Shown here one piece after another: positions 128-38,127 of a stretch of 38,127 nucleotides of DNA. Below the pieces are notes generated by a model that had not been told where the DNA came from, did not search any database, and worked only from the letters and a program-made list of their open reading frames with translations. This DNA is from a virus. Where the stretch lies: positions 1 to 38,127 of IMG/VR virus record IMGVR_UViG_3300044615_001107; one strand, 5' to 3'. The position numbers and the translations under genes are program-made. The stretch's first letter is position 1. Each line of letters starts with the position of its first letter.

Positions 128-1444
128 GCTTACAAAATCCCCTAAAAGAGCGGCCGTGTTGTGCGTTGGGATAAAACTCCTTGTCACCAAAAACGTATGA
201 CTTGGAGAATCCACCGTTAAACATTGCGTCCAAACCGGATCTATCGGCTCAATATTTGTGATGTAATGCCATTTTTGAGTCTCCCTTAAAACTTTAGGCA
301 ATCTTTGACTTTTTCTAAATAGCCTAAAAACAGGTAGGGCAGTAGTCGCTTTTACAATCCAAGCTAGTTTCCCCTCTACAGGCCCATTCTTCCCGTTCGT
401 ACAAATTGGTTTTTTTGACGTGATAAATGGCTTCACCCCTAAACTGGCCAATAACTCAAAAACTCCTCTTGATAACCCTTCATTCGTATTGCAAAACTCA
501 ATTTGCCCATCCGACATACAACTGCCGTCAGTATCAAACAACCCCTGCAATAATTCTAACCGTTGTTGTGGCGATGAATGAAGATATTCTTCAGGGATAT
601 GCTTTAAATCAGTAACCCCAAGTTCTTTAAGTTCAGTAATAAAAGGGCGGTCTCGTTCAATTTTATAAGTTATATCATCATAGGTAGCCCGTTCGACGCT
701 GTATCCACAAGAAAAAAGTTCTTTTGTTAATTCCTGAGAGTCTTCCTTCCCAATGGTAATTCGACCACTATCTCGACTCCCATCACCTAACCAAACCCCT
801 AACACGTAGGGAGGAATCGGCAAATCTCTTTCCGGCTGGTCAACGGTTCCAGCTAACTTAATTGCATGATTTACTTCTCGCCCGTTTTGAACTTTTAACG
901 TCTCAAAAAGCTCCTGGGTATCCCGCATTGTCCCAGTATTCGGCTCTTTGTACTGGTATTCTCGCGCCTTATTTAGCTCGGTAACCTTTTTTTGGCTCCC
1001 CGCATTTTTAGGGTCACTTTTAGCCCGGGAAGGACGGTTTTCTCTTCGCTTTGCACGGTATTCATCAGTGCACTTATGATTAGATACTCGTTCAGCTTTT
1101 GAATAGGTAATCCAGCGATGCACATCGTCGGCGACAATTTGCTGGCCATTGTCAAACGTCAATAAATAGCACTGCCTTAAAGTCGGCTCGCTCTTAAAAG
1201 TAACGGTCGTGGGCTTGCCATCAGCATCAAAAATCACATCTCCAACTTTGAGATCGCCAACGGTAGACCACCCGTAAGTAGTTAAAACCTCTGTAGAAAG
1301 TTTCAGCCCTTTACCACCACCTCTCGCTCCGCCAAACAGTATCTCAGGAACACTCTTGTATTTAAGCAAGTCCTCTTGAGGGCCCTTCTGAGGGAACCAT
1401 ACAAGTTTAGAGGCCCGCCTTAATATCTCGTCGCTTCCGTCCAT
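1..1444 (-). CDS. terL: Terminase large subunit, N-terminal part (gene continues at 38000 across the circular join)
   Basis: This is the ATPase end of the DNA-packaging motor. Reading leftward from ATG 1444, the first 45 residues end in the Walker A sequence GGARGGGK (residues 38-45). The frame then enters a 384-residue intein (bases 1309-158) and resumes with TAALLGDF, restoring the P-loop GGARGGGK-T. It continues through base 1 into the right end of the window, giving a 989-residue precursor with a second intein near its C-terminus. Removing both inteins leaves 475 residues, a normal TerL length. The start is the first ATG after an in-frame TAG upstream; an in-frame GTG lies between them, and no strong ribosome-binding site precedes either. 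TerS lies upstream on the same strand. I translated the frame by hand and it is open throughout. Confidence 0.95.
   Translation of the reverse strand, partial: MDGSDEILRRASKLVWFPQKGPQEDLLKYKSVPEILFGGARGGGKGLKLSTEVLTTYGWSTVGDLKVGDVIFDADGKPTTVTFKSEPTLRQCYLLTFDNGQQIVADDVHRWITYSKAERVSNHKCTDEYRAKRRENRPSRAKSDPKNAGSQKKVTELNKAREYQYKEPNTGTMRDTQELFETLKVQNGREVNHAIKLAGTVDQPERDLPIPPYVLGVWLGDGSRDSGRITIGKEDSQELTKELFSCGYSVERATYDDITYKIERDRPFITELKELGVTDLKHIPEEYLHSSPQQRLELLQGLFDTDGSCMSDGQIEFCNTNEGLSRGVFELLASLGVKPFITSKKPICTNGKNGPVEGKLAWIVKATTALPVFRLFRKSQRLPKVLRETQKWHYITNIEPIDPVWTQCLTVDSPSHTFLVTRSFIPTHNTAALLGDFVSDVSVYKQHWVGMLFRRTYPELEEVIRQSFEFYPQTGASYNAN
158..1309 (-). other. Intein 1 of TerL: 384-residue class 3-type intein with LAGLIDADG endonuclease
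   Basis: This in-frame protein intron splices itself out of TerL and probably spreads by homing. It starts with Gly46 of the precursor (not Cys, Ser or Thr) and ends THN429, followed by Thr430 as the +1 residue. Splicing blocks are visible: an N-terminal LSTEVLT/GWSTVGDLKVGD region, block B with His109 and Trp111, block F with Cys408 (TQCLTVDSPSH), and block G with Thr427-His-Asn. Trp at B:12, Cys at F:4 and Thr at G:5, together with a non-nucleophilic first residue, are the signature of class 3 inteins. The centre holds two LAGLIDADG-type blocks, VLGVWLGDG (about 214-222) and LLQGLFDTDG (298-307), 82 residues apart, each with its acidic residue. The endonuclease therefore looks intact. The insertion point lies between Lys and Thr of the Walker A motif. 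Confidence 0.93.
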
Positions 1445-25605: not shown

Positions 25606-27597
25606 TTACCCTTGAATAAACATGGCATGAGTACTGCCTGTCGATACTTTGCGAATGTTTGGCAAGCTACTTATTAAGACTGGAGAGTTTGCGCCTTGTG
25701 TTCCATTCCCAATGTAACCCTGTGTCGAACCCCATCCCCAAAGTTCTCCATTAGTTTTTAAGGCGTGTCTCATTTCAGTATAAGCACCCACTTTACTAAA
25801 GGATGCCCAATTTGTTGCGGATCCTACTTGGAGAGGGGTTGTGCTTGAGGTTGTTCCCCCGAGCCCTAATGCGGCTGCGCTAATTGCGCCGATTGTGTTC
25901 CCCCAACTCCACAGCGTTCCATCCGTTTTAATCGCATGACTAATATGGGTACTACATGCAACCTTTGCCCAATTATTTGCCGTCCCAATTTGGGTTGGGC
26001 TGGAAAAAACTCCCCCTGGGCTGCCTGTTGTAATCTGTCCTGCCGAACCGTCTCCCCATCCCCATAACGTACCATCAGCTTTTATGCCAAGAGCGTGACC
26101 TCCGTAAGAGCCCCCATTCGTTGCAGCTACGCTTAACCATGTTCCCGGTATTTGAATTGGGGTCGCAGAACTTGTTTGATTGCCTTGGCCAAGCCATCCA
26201 TAGGAGTTTCCGCCCCATCCCCATAAGGTGTCATCTGTTTTTAATGCCAATGTAAAGAAGTTAGTACAAAATACCTCTTTCCAATTTGTATCGGTTCCAA
26301 CCTGCAAAGGAATTAAACTTTGGGCACCGCCTGGAATCATAAAAACGTTATTGTTGTCTCCTCCCCATATCCACATAGTGCCATTGCTTTTTATTCCTGC
26401 TGAGTAATAAAGCCCCGAACTAACTTTTGCCCAATCTGTAGCTGTTCCAGCTTGTGTTGGCTGCGATCTTTGAGTCGTGGTGCCATCGCCAAGTTGACCG
26501 AAATTATTGCTACCCCAACCCCAAAGCGTACCATCACTTTTTATTGCAAGAGTGCTGTGCAAATTAGGATACCCTTCGCACTCAATATCAATCCAATTAC
26601 TTCCACTAATTGTATTTGTTGGGTAAAGAAAATCTGTGCTACCAGCTAATTGGTTTACACTATTGCTTCCAAACCCAAACAAAACACCAGGATAAACTGG
26701 CACAGTAGGCACAACCGGAGTTACAGGGGTACTACTTACACCACCGATAAACCCAACATCTCGGCATCCGGTATCAAGAAACCCACAGTTATAGCGGAAT
26801 ATATTACTAGTCCTACCGCCGTTGCGTTCGGCTAGATCGTTCCTTAACCCGATGTTAAACTCGGCTTCTAGATCCTGATACTCAAGCCCCTTCATGCGGT
26901 AGAATCGGGCTAAAATGCCTTTCATCAGGATTGAGGACTCAATTAAAGGCTCGTCGGTATCAGCGATAAAACGCTCGTAAAGGACGTTCGCTTTACGAGT
27001 CCAAGTGATAGTCCCATCGGCTCCATTGTTGGCGATTGTAGGGGCAGAAGTGCCCGCTGTGCCGCTTGTGTTCGCAGTCCAATACTCACCATCGGAGAAC
27101 ACCCACATGCCCGCTGTGACGCTCATAGAGGCCGCCCATTCTCGGGGCTTTATCCATGTCTTTGAGCGGTAAAAGAGGCTGATTGTTTCATTACCTACCG
27201 GAGTAGGATGCATCGCAACGGCTCGTGCGCCTTTGCTGTTTTGCGATACGCGAAATGCAAACTTAATTCCGGCGTTACCCGTTTGTGTAAGTGCCTGCCA
27301 TTCCCGAGGCGTTATTGGGCCTCGTATCGGAGTCATGTCGCCCGTGTACCATGCGGTCGAATCGAGTAGTTCAGCGCAATCAGCGGGAAGCGTCTGGTTA
27401 GTTCCAGCAACAAGGGAGAGGGAAGAGAGCTTAGTAAGCTGTGGCCAATCGAACATCCGAACGGCTTCAATGCCTCGTTCGTTGGCAATCGCTAGCAACT
27501 GTCTAGTTGTCGCGTCCGTATTGTTGATTATGGATGTCGGGCGAGGAAAGCCACCAAAATCACAAGCATCTTGGAGAACAGATAGAAGAGTCGCCAC
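25606..27597 (-). CDS. Tail adaptor fused to a seven-bladed RCC1-type propeller
   Basis: The product has 663 residues. Residues 1-285 look like a P22 gp4-type or T7 gp11-type tail adaptor: N-terminal helices (LLSVLQDACDFGG..., RQLLAIANERGIEAVRMFDWPQL), strands with LPADCAELLDSTAWY, and a terminal helix pair (MKGILARFYRMKGLEYQDLEAEFNIGLRNDLAERNGG). An inserted WVFSDGEYWTANTSGTAG... unit at about 165-200 resembles small carbohydrate-binding inserts of phage tail proteins. After the Pro/Val/Thr linker (about 288-304), seven RCC1-type repeats follow, marked by (S/T)(D/N)G-LWGWG cores at about 354, 404, 454, 507, 558 and 615. The half blade GVLFGFGSN at 304 is closed by the final STHAMFIQG. The fusion is unusual: adaptors normally end after the first part. 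Confidence 0.8.
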   Translation of the reverse strand: MATLLSVLQDACDFGGFPRPTSIINNTDATTRQLLAIANERGIEAVRMFDWPQLTKLSSLSLVAGTNQTLPADCAELLDSTAWYTGDMTPIRGPITPREWQALTQTGNAGIKFAFRVSQNSKGARAVAMHPTPVGNETISLFYRSKTWIKPREWAASMSVTAGMWVFSDGEYWTANTSGTAGTSAPTIANNGADGTITWTRKANVLYERFIADTDEPLIESSILMKGILARFYRMKGLEYQDLEAEFNIGLRNDLAERNGGRTSNIFRYNCGFLDTGCRDVGFIGGVSSTPVTPVVPTVPVYPGVLFGFGSNSVNQLAGSTDFLYPTNTISGSNWIDIECEGYPNLHSTLAIKSDGTLWGWGSNNFGQLGDGTTTQRSQPTQAGTATDWAKVSSGLYYSAGIKSNGTMWIWGGDNNNVFMIPGGAQSLIPLQVGTDTNWKEVFCTNFFTLALKTDDTLWGWGGNSYGWLGQGNQTSSATPIQIPGTWLSVAATNGGSYGGHALGIKADGTLWGWGDGSAGQITTGSPGGVFSSPTQIGTANNWAKVACSTHISHAIKTDGTLWSWGNTIGAISAAALGLGGTTSSTTPLQVGSATNWASFSKVGAYTEMRHALKTNGELWGWGSTQGYIGNGTQGANSPVLISSLPNIRKVSTGSTHAMFIQG

Positions 27598-36474: not shown

Positions 36475-38127
36475 TTAAATCCGCCACCGATTGCTCACAT
36501 CGTCCACCGCTTCCACCAAGTCCGAATAGGTCATCGCGTTCGGGTCTCGGCGCTTCTTCTTGTCAAAACGGGGAATAACTGGCCATTGCATTGCTATGTA
36601 ACGGACGACATCAGCGCAATTATGGACAATGATTCCGCCTAAGATGGAGAAGTGATGGAGTGAAGGCACTCGGAGGCAATAAACATCACTTATTCCCGCA
36701 TCTTTGACATCAGTTACCAAAATTAGACCTTTTTTGCGATCAACAACCGCAATTTTCGTGCCATCTTCCTTTATTAAGTCCTTTGCCTCAACCCATCCGC
36801 CATGCGTCATAAAACGGTGGTCAGGCGTGCATCTTACTTTACGTCCATCCGCAAAACTGACTTCAACTACAGGTACATCTTTTTGCTTCAATCCTGCCTT
36901 ATCGTAGGCAGCTAAACCGTAATGCGTCATTACATAACCCTGCTCTGGCAATAGGGCAATTGGCGTTTGACCAACTGGCATATCAACCAAAGTATCGCCC
37001 GTGAAACAGTGGTCGGCCCCTTGCGTATCCACGTCCTCTGGCCTTCTATCATCGTGCTGAAGCATCGGGAACGTTCGAAGCAAGTGCTTGCAACTGCGAG
37101 TAAACAGCAAACTCTTTTCTCTTAGCCTCATCCGTATTTGGTTCCAGCCAGGAATTCTCGACTTATCGCTTCTTGAGAAGTAAACCCCCGCAATCGCCAA
37201 CGCATCGGCGATACTTTGACCTCCGTGGTTCTCAAATATCTGGTTATCCGCCGGCCCTGGCTCAATTCTTCTCTTTATGGTGGATTCTCGCTCTGTAATG
37301 CCGTCTCGAATGTCAACAAGGGACATTTTTAAGCCCTCATCTTTATCATTTCCCCCGTACCATTCTCTCAAAATGACAATCGAGCCCTTCTTGATGCCCC
37401 TCCAGTCCTCTCCAGCATAGGTATACCAGAGCACAGCAAAAGGGTGATAAGTCCCATGGTCATACGCCCTATAAATCTTCCAGTGATTCGGGATGTCATC
37501 GGGGTCAATCGCATCAATAACGTGTTCTTGGCTAAACTCAGGGAAGTAGGCACCGGCAACAACGTCCCAATCCCCATGCAACCACGCCCGCACCATCTCA
37601 GGGCTCCCAATCTCATGAAGCCTTTGAACGTACGTCGGGTCGGCCTTCATCAGAATCTGGTTATCCGTGACTCTAGAAGGGATGAACATCCTATGAAGTC
37701 CGGTGTCTTGTTCAAGAAGCTTATAGCCTTGAGGGTTCTCGGCTATCCCGTAACGCGCCTTTACCCATCCATGGCCCACGCCTCCCGGGTTCGCAGTTAA
37801 TCGCAACCGTTTATGAGGCACATCGTGAGGGCTTCTCAAACAAGCAATCATCTGGGTGAACCCCTCATCGGTGGCAAAGTTACCGACCTCATCGAAGCCC
37901 AGCCACGTTAAATTGAAACCTTGATAATTGGTCGCGTCCCTTGCATGCGCCATATACCTCAAGTAAAGCTTAGCCCCATTAGGCCACTTCCAAACCTTCT
38001 CATTCGCATTATAAGAAGCACCGGTTTGGGGGTAAAACTCGAAACTCTGTCGAATCACCTCCTCTAGTTCTGGGTAAGTCCTACGGAAGAGCATCCCAAC
38101 CCAGTGCTGCTTATAAACCGAAACATC
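36475..38127 (-). CDS. terL: Terminase large subunit, C-terminal part (continues from base 1444)
   Basis: This is the rest of the 989-residue TerL precursor; the window edge cuts the gene. In precursor numbering, Walker B is LTWLGFDE (512-519) and the coupling motif is LTANPGG (549-555). The RNase H-like nuclease has Asp662 (YRAYDHG), Asp733 (GPADNQIFE) and the third acidic motif. That third motif is split by the mini-intein: ADH (to 812), intein 813-942, then CADVVRY (from 943). The last 47 residues follow the intein and are basic. The nuclease cuts the concatemer and the ATPase translocates DNA. The protein must splice twice to be active, because both inteins break catalytic motifs. Confidence 0.95.
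   Translation of the reverse strand, partial: DVSVYKQHWVGMLFRRTYPELEEVIRQSFEFYPQTGASYNANEKVWKWPNGAKLYLRYMAHARDATNYQGFNLTWLGFDEVGNFATDEGFTQMIACLRSPHDVPHKRLRLTANPGGVGHGWVKARYGIAENPQGYKLLEQDTGLHRMFIPSRVTDNQILMKADPTYVQRLHEIGSPEMVRAWLHGDWDVVAGAYFPEFSQEHVIDAIDPDDIPNHWKIYRAYDHGTYHPFAVLWYTYAGEDWRGIKKGSIVILREWYGGNDKDEGLKMSLVDIRDGITERESTIKRRIEPGPADNQIFENHGGQSIADALAIAGVYFSRSDKSRIPGWNQIRMRLREKSLLFTRSCKHLLRTFPMLQHDDRRPEDVDTQGADHCFTGDTLVDMPVGQTPIALLPEQGYVMTHYGLAAYDKAGLKQKDVPVVEVSFADGRKVRCTPDHRFMTHGGWVEAKDLIKEDGTKIAVVDRKKGLILVTDVKDAGISDVYCLRVPSLHHFSILGGIIVHNCADVVRYIAMQWPVIPRFDKKKRRDPNAMTYSDLVEAVDDVSNRWRI
36619..37008 (-). other. Intein 2 of TerL: 130-residue mini-intein
   Basis: The element starts with Cys (CFTGDTLVDMPVG, block A) and has TPDHRFMTHGGW (block B with its Thr and His). 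It ends with block F (VYCLRVPSLHHFSIL) and block G (GGIIVHN), followed by Cys as the +1 residue. It lacks a homing endonuclease. Its length, 130 residues, is that of a minimal splicing domain. Having Cys at both the first and +1 positions, it should use the standard (class 1) pathway. The insertion site is the nuclease motif ADH|CADVVRY, where flanking residues cannot easily be lost. Confidence 0.95.
38001..38127. repeat. Terminal direct repeat, right copy (assembly overlap)
   Basis: These bases are identical to bases 1-127. Within TerL they encode the segment beginning VYKQHWVGMLFRR and continuing through the following catalytic-domain residues. Trimming one copy restores the continuous gene. 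Confidence 0.95.

Follow-up and report, generated by a model that had tools for sequence, protein, structure and literature searches.

Does the insertion that splits the ATP-binding loop of a phage large terminase (TerL) in this viral DNA, and that begins with glycine instead of a nucleophile, belong to the class 3 inteins, and what does it mean for the enzyme and for the spread of the element? We analysed the window, the whole virus record of 38,127 bases, whose minus strand carries the TerL frame, together with related terminase genes and inteins from metagenomic contigs and isolated phages. The element is, with high confidence, a class 3 intein that carries a LAGLIDADG homing endonuclease and is lodged in the Walker A loop of the terminase; it is accompanied by a second intein in the same gene, and close relatives of that gene carry from none to three.

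A terminase gene probably interrupted in both catalytic domains

The ends of the window (positions 1–127 and 38001–38127) are an exact direct repeat of 127 bases, and the map is therefore circular, with a unit of 38,000 bases. Since 127 is a common k-mer length in assembly, we take the repeat for an overlap left by the assembler, not a true end of the genome, and TerL for a gene split across an artificial break. Followed through the junction, the gene starts on the minus strand at an ATG at 1444, runs down to base 1, resumes at 38127 (equivalently 38000) and ends at a stop codon at 36475, within a single open frame of 1012 codons that includes codons upstream. The N-extein (1310–1444, minus strand) extends from the ATG to the Walker A residues GGARGGGK (1310–1333). 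The extein sequence downstream of the first intein (intein 1) begins with the residue Thr+1 at 2–157 and goes on at the other window end as the middle extein (37009–38127), in which Walker B, LTWLGFDE (37888–37911), is free of an intein in the window. The C-terminal extein (36475–36618) contains the presumed last nuclease aspartate, in CADVVRY, and ends at the stop codon. The original prediction had overlooked both the course of TerL across the ends of the circular map and a second intein (intein 2) at 36619–37008.

Once both inteins are removed, the host protein is recognizable as a terminase with its ATPase domain (Pfam Terminase_6N, E = 7.4e-8; phrog_2 and phrog_979, 9e-36 and 4e-34). For the expected C-terminal nuclease domain, of RNase H-like type, Pfam returned no match in this TerL family; phrog_2 spans the region. 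The PDB held no clear sequence relative of the window's TerL, and neither the bacterial and archaeal genomes searched with the terminase nor a DNA-level search of isolated phages yielded a relative. Elsewhere on the minus strand, in the structural module, the product of 25606–27597 has C-terminal RCC1-type beta-propeller repeats (Pfam WD40_RLD, 2.6e-45; RCC1, 2.4e-29), which seemed unusual for a phage.

Intein 2, a class 1-type mini-intein of 130 residues on the minus strand, splits a putative nuclease motif as DH/CADVVRY (a slash marks an insertion point here and below). It has Cys1 (CFTGDTLV), a TxxH block B (TPDH), a terminal IIVHN and Cys at +1, matches Pfam Intein_splicing at 44.7 bits (cutoff 35.8), and falls in the class 1 clade, where it groups with the intein of phage ctRVW222 (99/85 support). 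In the terminases of ctRVW222 and BL3, matches to the Terminase_6C and Terminase_3C nuclease domains end at the homologous insertion point. The G20c terminase has a metal-binding Asp429 and a nearby His427 at its active site (PMC5389553); judging from the likeness of the motifs, intein 2 would separate the equivalent His and Asp. Both catalytic domains of the window's TerL are thus probably interrupted, by inteins of different classes.

Junctions and class of the P-loop intein

According to the original prediction, an intein at 158–1309 separates the Walker A Lys from its Thr, and this proved correct to the base: intein 1 occupies 384 codons of the minus strand, between the P-loop residues of GGARGGGK/TAALLG. 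It opens with Gly1 (codon 1307–1309) and closes with block G, RSFIPTHN (158–181), which supplies Thr382 (G:5), His383 and Asn384 (codons 158–166) directly before Thr+1 (155–157). The block B region, QIVADDVHRW (1112–1141), contains Asp61 of a DxxH motif, His64 (B:10; 1118–1120) and Trp66 (B:12; 1112–1114), and block F, WTQCLTVDSPSHTFLV (185–232), contains Cys363 (F:4; 221–223). A further cysteine, Cys47 (1169–1171), aligns with Cys48 of the Mycobacterium smegmatis DnaBi1 intein. Two LAGLIDADG motifs lie between blocks B and F, YVLGVWLGDG (residues 168–177; 779–808) and LLQGLFDTDG (residues 253–262; 524–553), and the sequence matches Pfam LAGLIDADG_3 (PF14528) above the cutoff (E = 1.2e-6). Every motif reading made earlier, from the initial Gly and the Trp, Cys and Thr to the THN end before Thr and the pair of LAGLIDADG blocks, was right, and the residue then called Cys408 in precursor numbering is Cys363, given a TerL start at the ATG at 1444. 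Across 55 relatives, His64 and Trp66 are invariant (55/55 each), as are Asp259 and Asp261 of the second LAGLIDADG motif (55/55), and Asp176 of the first is retained in 53 of the 55; two motifs with acidic catalytic residues mark intein 1, by sequence, as carrying a putative LAGLIDADG homing endonuclease, though intact residues of this kind are no proof of activity. The Cys47 column holds a cysteine in 32/55.

The identity of the first residue is settled by relatives that lack the intein. The search for intein-free TerL genes with a GGARGGGKT-type site, suggested with the original prediction, was productive: six relatives (L012, L013, L014, L016, L018 and L021) have an empty P-loop site, GGxRGGGKTAALLG. 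In L016, which contains intein 2 and lacks intein 1 in a gene with 96% nucleotide identity to the window, ...GGTGGTGGCAAA is joined straight to ACGGCCGCT..., with 1 of 45 bases differing from the window upstream of the junction and 1 of 33 downstream. Because Gly1 differs from the following Thr, and Asn384 from the preceding Lys, the junction cannot slide, and a shift of one residue at either end fails to restore the empty allele. The intein-free relatives therefore fix both junctions, so that the true first residue, which we also examined for a possible Cys or Ser, can be neither. A class 1 assignment, which needs Cys or Ser at position 1, was rejected on this ground.

Neither Pfam nor NCBIfam yielded a useful match to the splicing domain of intein 1, the LAGLIDADG part alone being named, and so we tested its class with purpose-built alignments. 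An alignment (A1) of 19 such class 3-type inteins was used to scan IMG/VR, and the best 80 loci, together with named phages, gave 86 distinct intact class 3-type inteins, a sample drawn by likeness to intein 1. Among these listed matches, the Trp-Cys-Thr signature is present in 86/86; position 1 is Ala in 46, Gly in 11, Leu in 9, Pro in 7 and other residues in the remainder, never Cys or Ser, and the +1 residue is Thr in 50 and Ser in 36. Intein 1 has the same features: Gly1 in place of Cys, Ser or Thr; Trp66, Cys363 and Thr382 at B:12, F:4 and G:5; and at +1 a Thr, not Cys, in keeping with the Ser or Thr that characterizes class 3 at this position (PMC5222942). The class 3 inteins of L011 and L034 (YungMoney) end in TRN, not THN, with Arg as the penultimate residue.

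A tree of the splicing blocks separates 34 class 3-type rows, intein 1 included, from 12 class 1 rows that start with Cys (98/96 support), the class 1 set being small and long-branched. The comparison of class 1 and class 3 profiles that had been proposed for this element gave a clear preference: a class 3 profile from which intein 1 and its closest kin were held out scores it at 147.8 bits, well above the 42.7 of a class 1 profile, and the order is reversed for intein 2 (18.2 bits for class 3, 81.3 for class 1). By sequence, the nearest PDB entries to intein 1 are the class 3 DnaB inteins 6rix, 6riy and 6bs8 (E = 1e-15 to 1e-16). Its AlphaFold2 model (pLDDT 94.2, pTM 0.91) matches PI-SceI over the full length (Z 26–27), and the splicing part, which in the predicted model adopts the HINT fold, is closest to the class 3 DnaB intein 6bs8 (Z 20.8, rmsd 1.5 Å over 126 residues, 36% identity), which outranks every class 1 mini-intein. 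Sequence, tree, profile and predicted structure agree in supporting a class 3 placement, and with the signature residues and the fixed first position they bear out the class 3 reading made at the outset.

Such an element probably excises itself after translation. Cys363 would attack the peptide bond that links the Lys of the P-loop to Gly1, generating a branched thioester at block F (after PMC4031507, PMC5222942); the N-extein would then be transferred to Thr+1, the P-loop Thr, Asn384 would cyclise, and the exteins would be joined, restoring the GGARGGGKT P-loop. At the DNA level, the probable target of the endonuclease is the GGGK/T site of TerL genes that lack the intein, whose cleavage would let the intein spread by homing. 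In the window's TerL, both catalytic centres would stay blocked until two independent splicing reactions, that of the class 3 intein and that of the class 1 mini-intein, are complete. We infer splicing, the use of Cys363, DNA cleavage and homing, as we do the class and mechanism behind them, from the sequence and a predicted fold.

Signs of mobility and an allelic series

The earlier suggestion that intein 1 may still be mobile gains support from its presence or absence among close relatives and from its occurrence in a distant terminase, that of L009. There the P-loop intein shares 67% identity with intein 1, whereas the terminase itself is only ~40% identical where aligned; at the DNA level, identity between the two loci is about 42–44% next to the junction and 65% within the intein. 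Close alleles of intein 1 have dN/dS values of 0.07–0.21, which indicates purifying selection. Several are mosaics: L006 and L007 fall to 51–59% nucleotide identity with intein 1 at about residues 181–230, and L008 to 54–68% at about residues 141–270, in each case between flanks near 90% or more. LAGLIDADG enzymes contact DNA through the stretch between the two motifs, and this stretch appears, from the sequence pattern, to have been swapped between alleles; one may speculate that the swap altered the choice of target. The shared site in a distant terminase and the mosaic endonuclease region are strong signs that intein 1 is mobile.

Grouping contigs whose terminases are ~90% or more identical to that of the window over most of the extein, a set of close relatives made up entirely of metagenomic contigs, we find an allelic series. 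Three contigs have no intein (L012, L013, L014); four have the P-loop class 3 intein only (L003, L006, L007, L008); two have a nuclease-site intein only (L016, L018) and one a Walker B-site intein only (L021); the window, L004, L005 and L020 combine P-loop and nuclease-site inteins; and L022 (429–4322, a frame of 1298 codons) has all three, its P-loop intein being of class 3 and those before Walker B and at the nuclease site both of class 1. L022 is an 8-kb contig, each of whose three inteins is also present in another contig, and it may be a chimeric assembly. In a different terminase family, L102 (frame at 1639) likewise carries three, two of class 3 and one of class 1, so that terminases with three inteins are not unique to L022. 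A literature search for a three-intein phage terminase returned no paper, which is weak evidence given the partial journal coverage.

Occupants of a given site also vary. The P-loop accommodates two class 3 inteins, of GLKL and LLNL type, that are 43% identical, and the nuclease site two class 1 inteins, of 130 and 325 residues. On an extein tree of 14 rows, the minimum number of presence changes is 6 for the P-loop, 3 for the nuclease site and 2 for Walker B, counts that are only indicative because support for the tree is weak (2/11 inner branches starred) and recombination may affect the gene. In 17 contigs, the window included (L003–L024, L126), the sequence after the nuclease site reads CADVVRY in every intein-bearing allele and IGDCIRY or LADVLRY in every empty one. 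A class 1 intein requires Cys, Ser or Thr at +1, and since only the bearing alleles read CADVVRY, the +1 codon apparently moves together with the intein by co-conversion of the flank. The class 1 inteins at Walker B (L021/L022, L009) and at the nuclease site (L004/L005/L020/L024/L126) contain inserts of ~190–200 residues in which Pfam finds no recognised homing endonuclease; the nuclease-site insert has weak matches to phrog_30251 (terminase) and phrog_35162 (unknown).

This series, with zero to three inteins at three active-site positions in close relatives, is a less ordinary finding than one more class 3 intein. It offers matched native backgrounds in which to ask whether terminase inteins simply parasitise packaging or regulate it too, and how inteins of the two classes splice within one precursor.

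Alternative readings and known systems

The non-nucleophilic Gly at position 1 would equally be expected of a decayed class 1 intein, one whose N-terminal nucleophile and splicing activity are both gone; TerL would then be inactive, either as the host of a dead intein or as a pseudogene, and splicing of intein 1 is itself a prediction from sequence. We consider this very unlikely: the Trp-Cys-Thr signature is complete and the element sits in a clade with class 3 inteins; it is maintained in frame in seven contigs of this terminase family, under the purifying selection described above; and its block B has the DxxH known from class 3 (PMC6195587), not TxxH. A first position without a nucleophile would also suit a class 2 (KlbA-type) intein, for which Asp at F:4, Ser at G:6 and Cys at +1 are expected (PMC4031507); intein 1 has Cys363, His383 and Thr+1 there and lies among class 3 inteins in the tree, which makes that assignment still more improbable.

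A class 3 intein might do more than move. The two inteins could form a regulatory double lock, with a Cys47–Cys363 disulfide gating class 3 splicing by redox state and both ATPase and nuclease held inactive until conditions are suitable. In DnaBi1, oxidation links Cys48, the counterpart of Cys47, to the catalytic Cys and reversibly inhibits splicing (PMC6195587); the insertions here lie within catalytic motifs, and the Mic1 genome paper put forward a similar idea for that phage's terminase with two inteins (PMC7156551). Selfish homing, however, predicts insertion in conserved motifs equally well, and close relatives without one or all inteins indicate that inteins are not needed for packaging. 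Because cysteine is common in the Cys47 column, where it may be structural, and intein-free relatives exist, we give regulation little weight and regard it as an unlikely addition to mobility. A wider form of the idea would have the terminases of this phage group locked by as many as three inteins of differing mechanism, one per catalytic motif: a class 3 element in the P-loop and class 1 elements ahead of Walker B and at the nuclease motif. Natural alleles with 0, 1, 2 or 3 inteins would circulate among close relatives, and conditional, for example redox-gated, class 3 splicing would time DNA packaging. This seems to us just as doubtful.

Read as a mobile class 3 intein, the element belongs to a populous group. 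The original prediction had called the mechanism rare and best known from DnaB helicases; this does not hold for the terminase P-loop, where class 3 inteins between Lys and Ser or Thr are frequent. Insertion at GK/Ser or GK/Thr accounts for 70/86 of the intact class 3-type relatives among the matches listed, many in terminases of isolated phages, and the proportion is biased by a sample picked by likeness to intein 1, the number alone still removing the claim of rarity. Among relatives of intein 1, at least, the terminase P-loop is a main home of this class. Other hosts, identified by eye, include an MCM-like helicase (L075, frame at 1966) with a class 3 P-loop intein and a class 1 intein further along, and what appears to be a portal protein (L106, frame at 1960), a class 3 host that would not be an ATPase.

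At the same junction, class 3-type inteins occur in isolated phages that include Stenotrophomonas phage SOVA965, Vibrio phage 489E54-1, Rhodobacter phage RcKickapoo, Clavibacter phage CMP1 and Synechococcus phage B23. Their inteins resemble intein 1 in the Trp-Cys-Thr signature, the lack of a position-1 nucleophile, the LAGLIDADG domain and the insertion after the Walker A Lys and before Ser or Thr; they differ in being just 33–37% identical to it and in residing in other terminase families. In mycobacteriophages, class 3 TerL inteins (c, d and e) were reported in 2016 by Kelley et al., who showed splicing and DNA cleavage for some of the TerL inteins (PMC5050341). The mycobacteriophage intein TerL1-a shares the Lys/Thr junction of intein 1, and the TerL inteins of these phages all lie in the ATPase domain, unlike the window's nuclease-domain intein 2 (PMC5050341).

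For intein 2, the closest parallels are the nuclease-site TerL inteins of ctRVW222, Brochothrix phage BL3 and Lactobacillus phage CL2, which share its insertion point (DH/C...(x)D) in terminases that, unlike the window's, have no P-loop intein. The terminase of Microcystis phage Mic1 (L026) resembles the window's in having two inteins, one in the ATPase domain and one in the nuclease domain (PMC7156551). Its nuclease intein (DHL/C...N/CDALRY) is one residue from the point of intein 2, and its ATPase-domain intein, unlike intein 1, starts with Cys, as in class 1, and occupies another site (LLTG/C...HN/T). The combination of classes has its counterpart in M. smegmatis DnaB, which pairs a class 3 P-loop intein (DnaBi1, PDB 6bs8) with a class 1 intein elsewhere (DnaBi2) (PMC6195587). 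The two cysteines that form the redox trap of DnaBi1 have aligned counterparts in intein 1; DnaB, unlike the window's TerL, is a helicase, and DnaBi1 is without an endonuclease.
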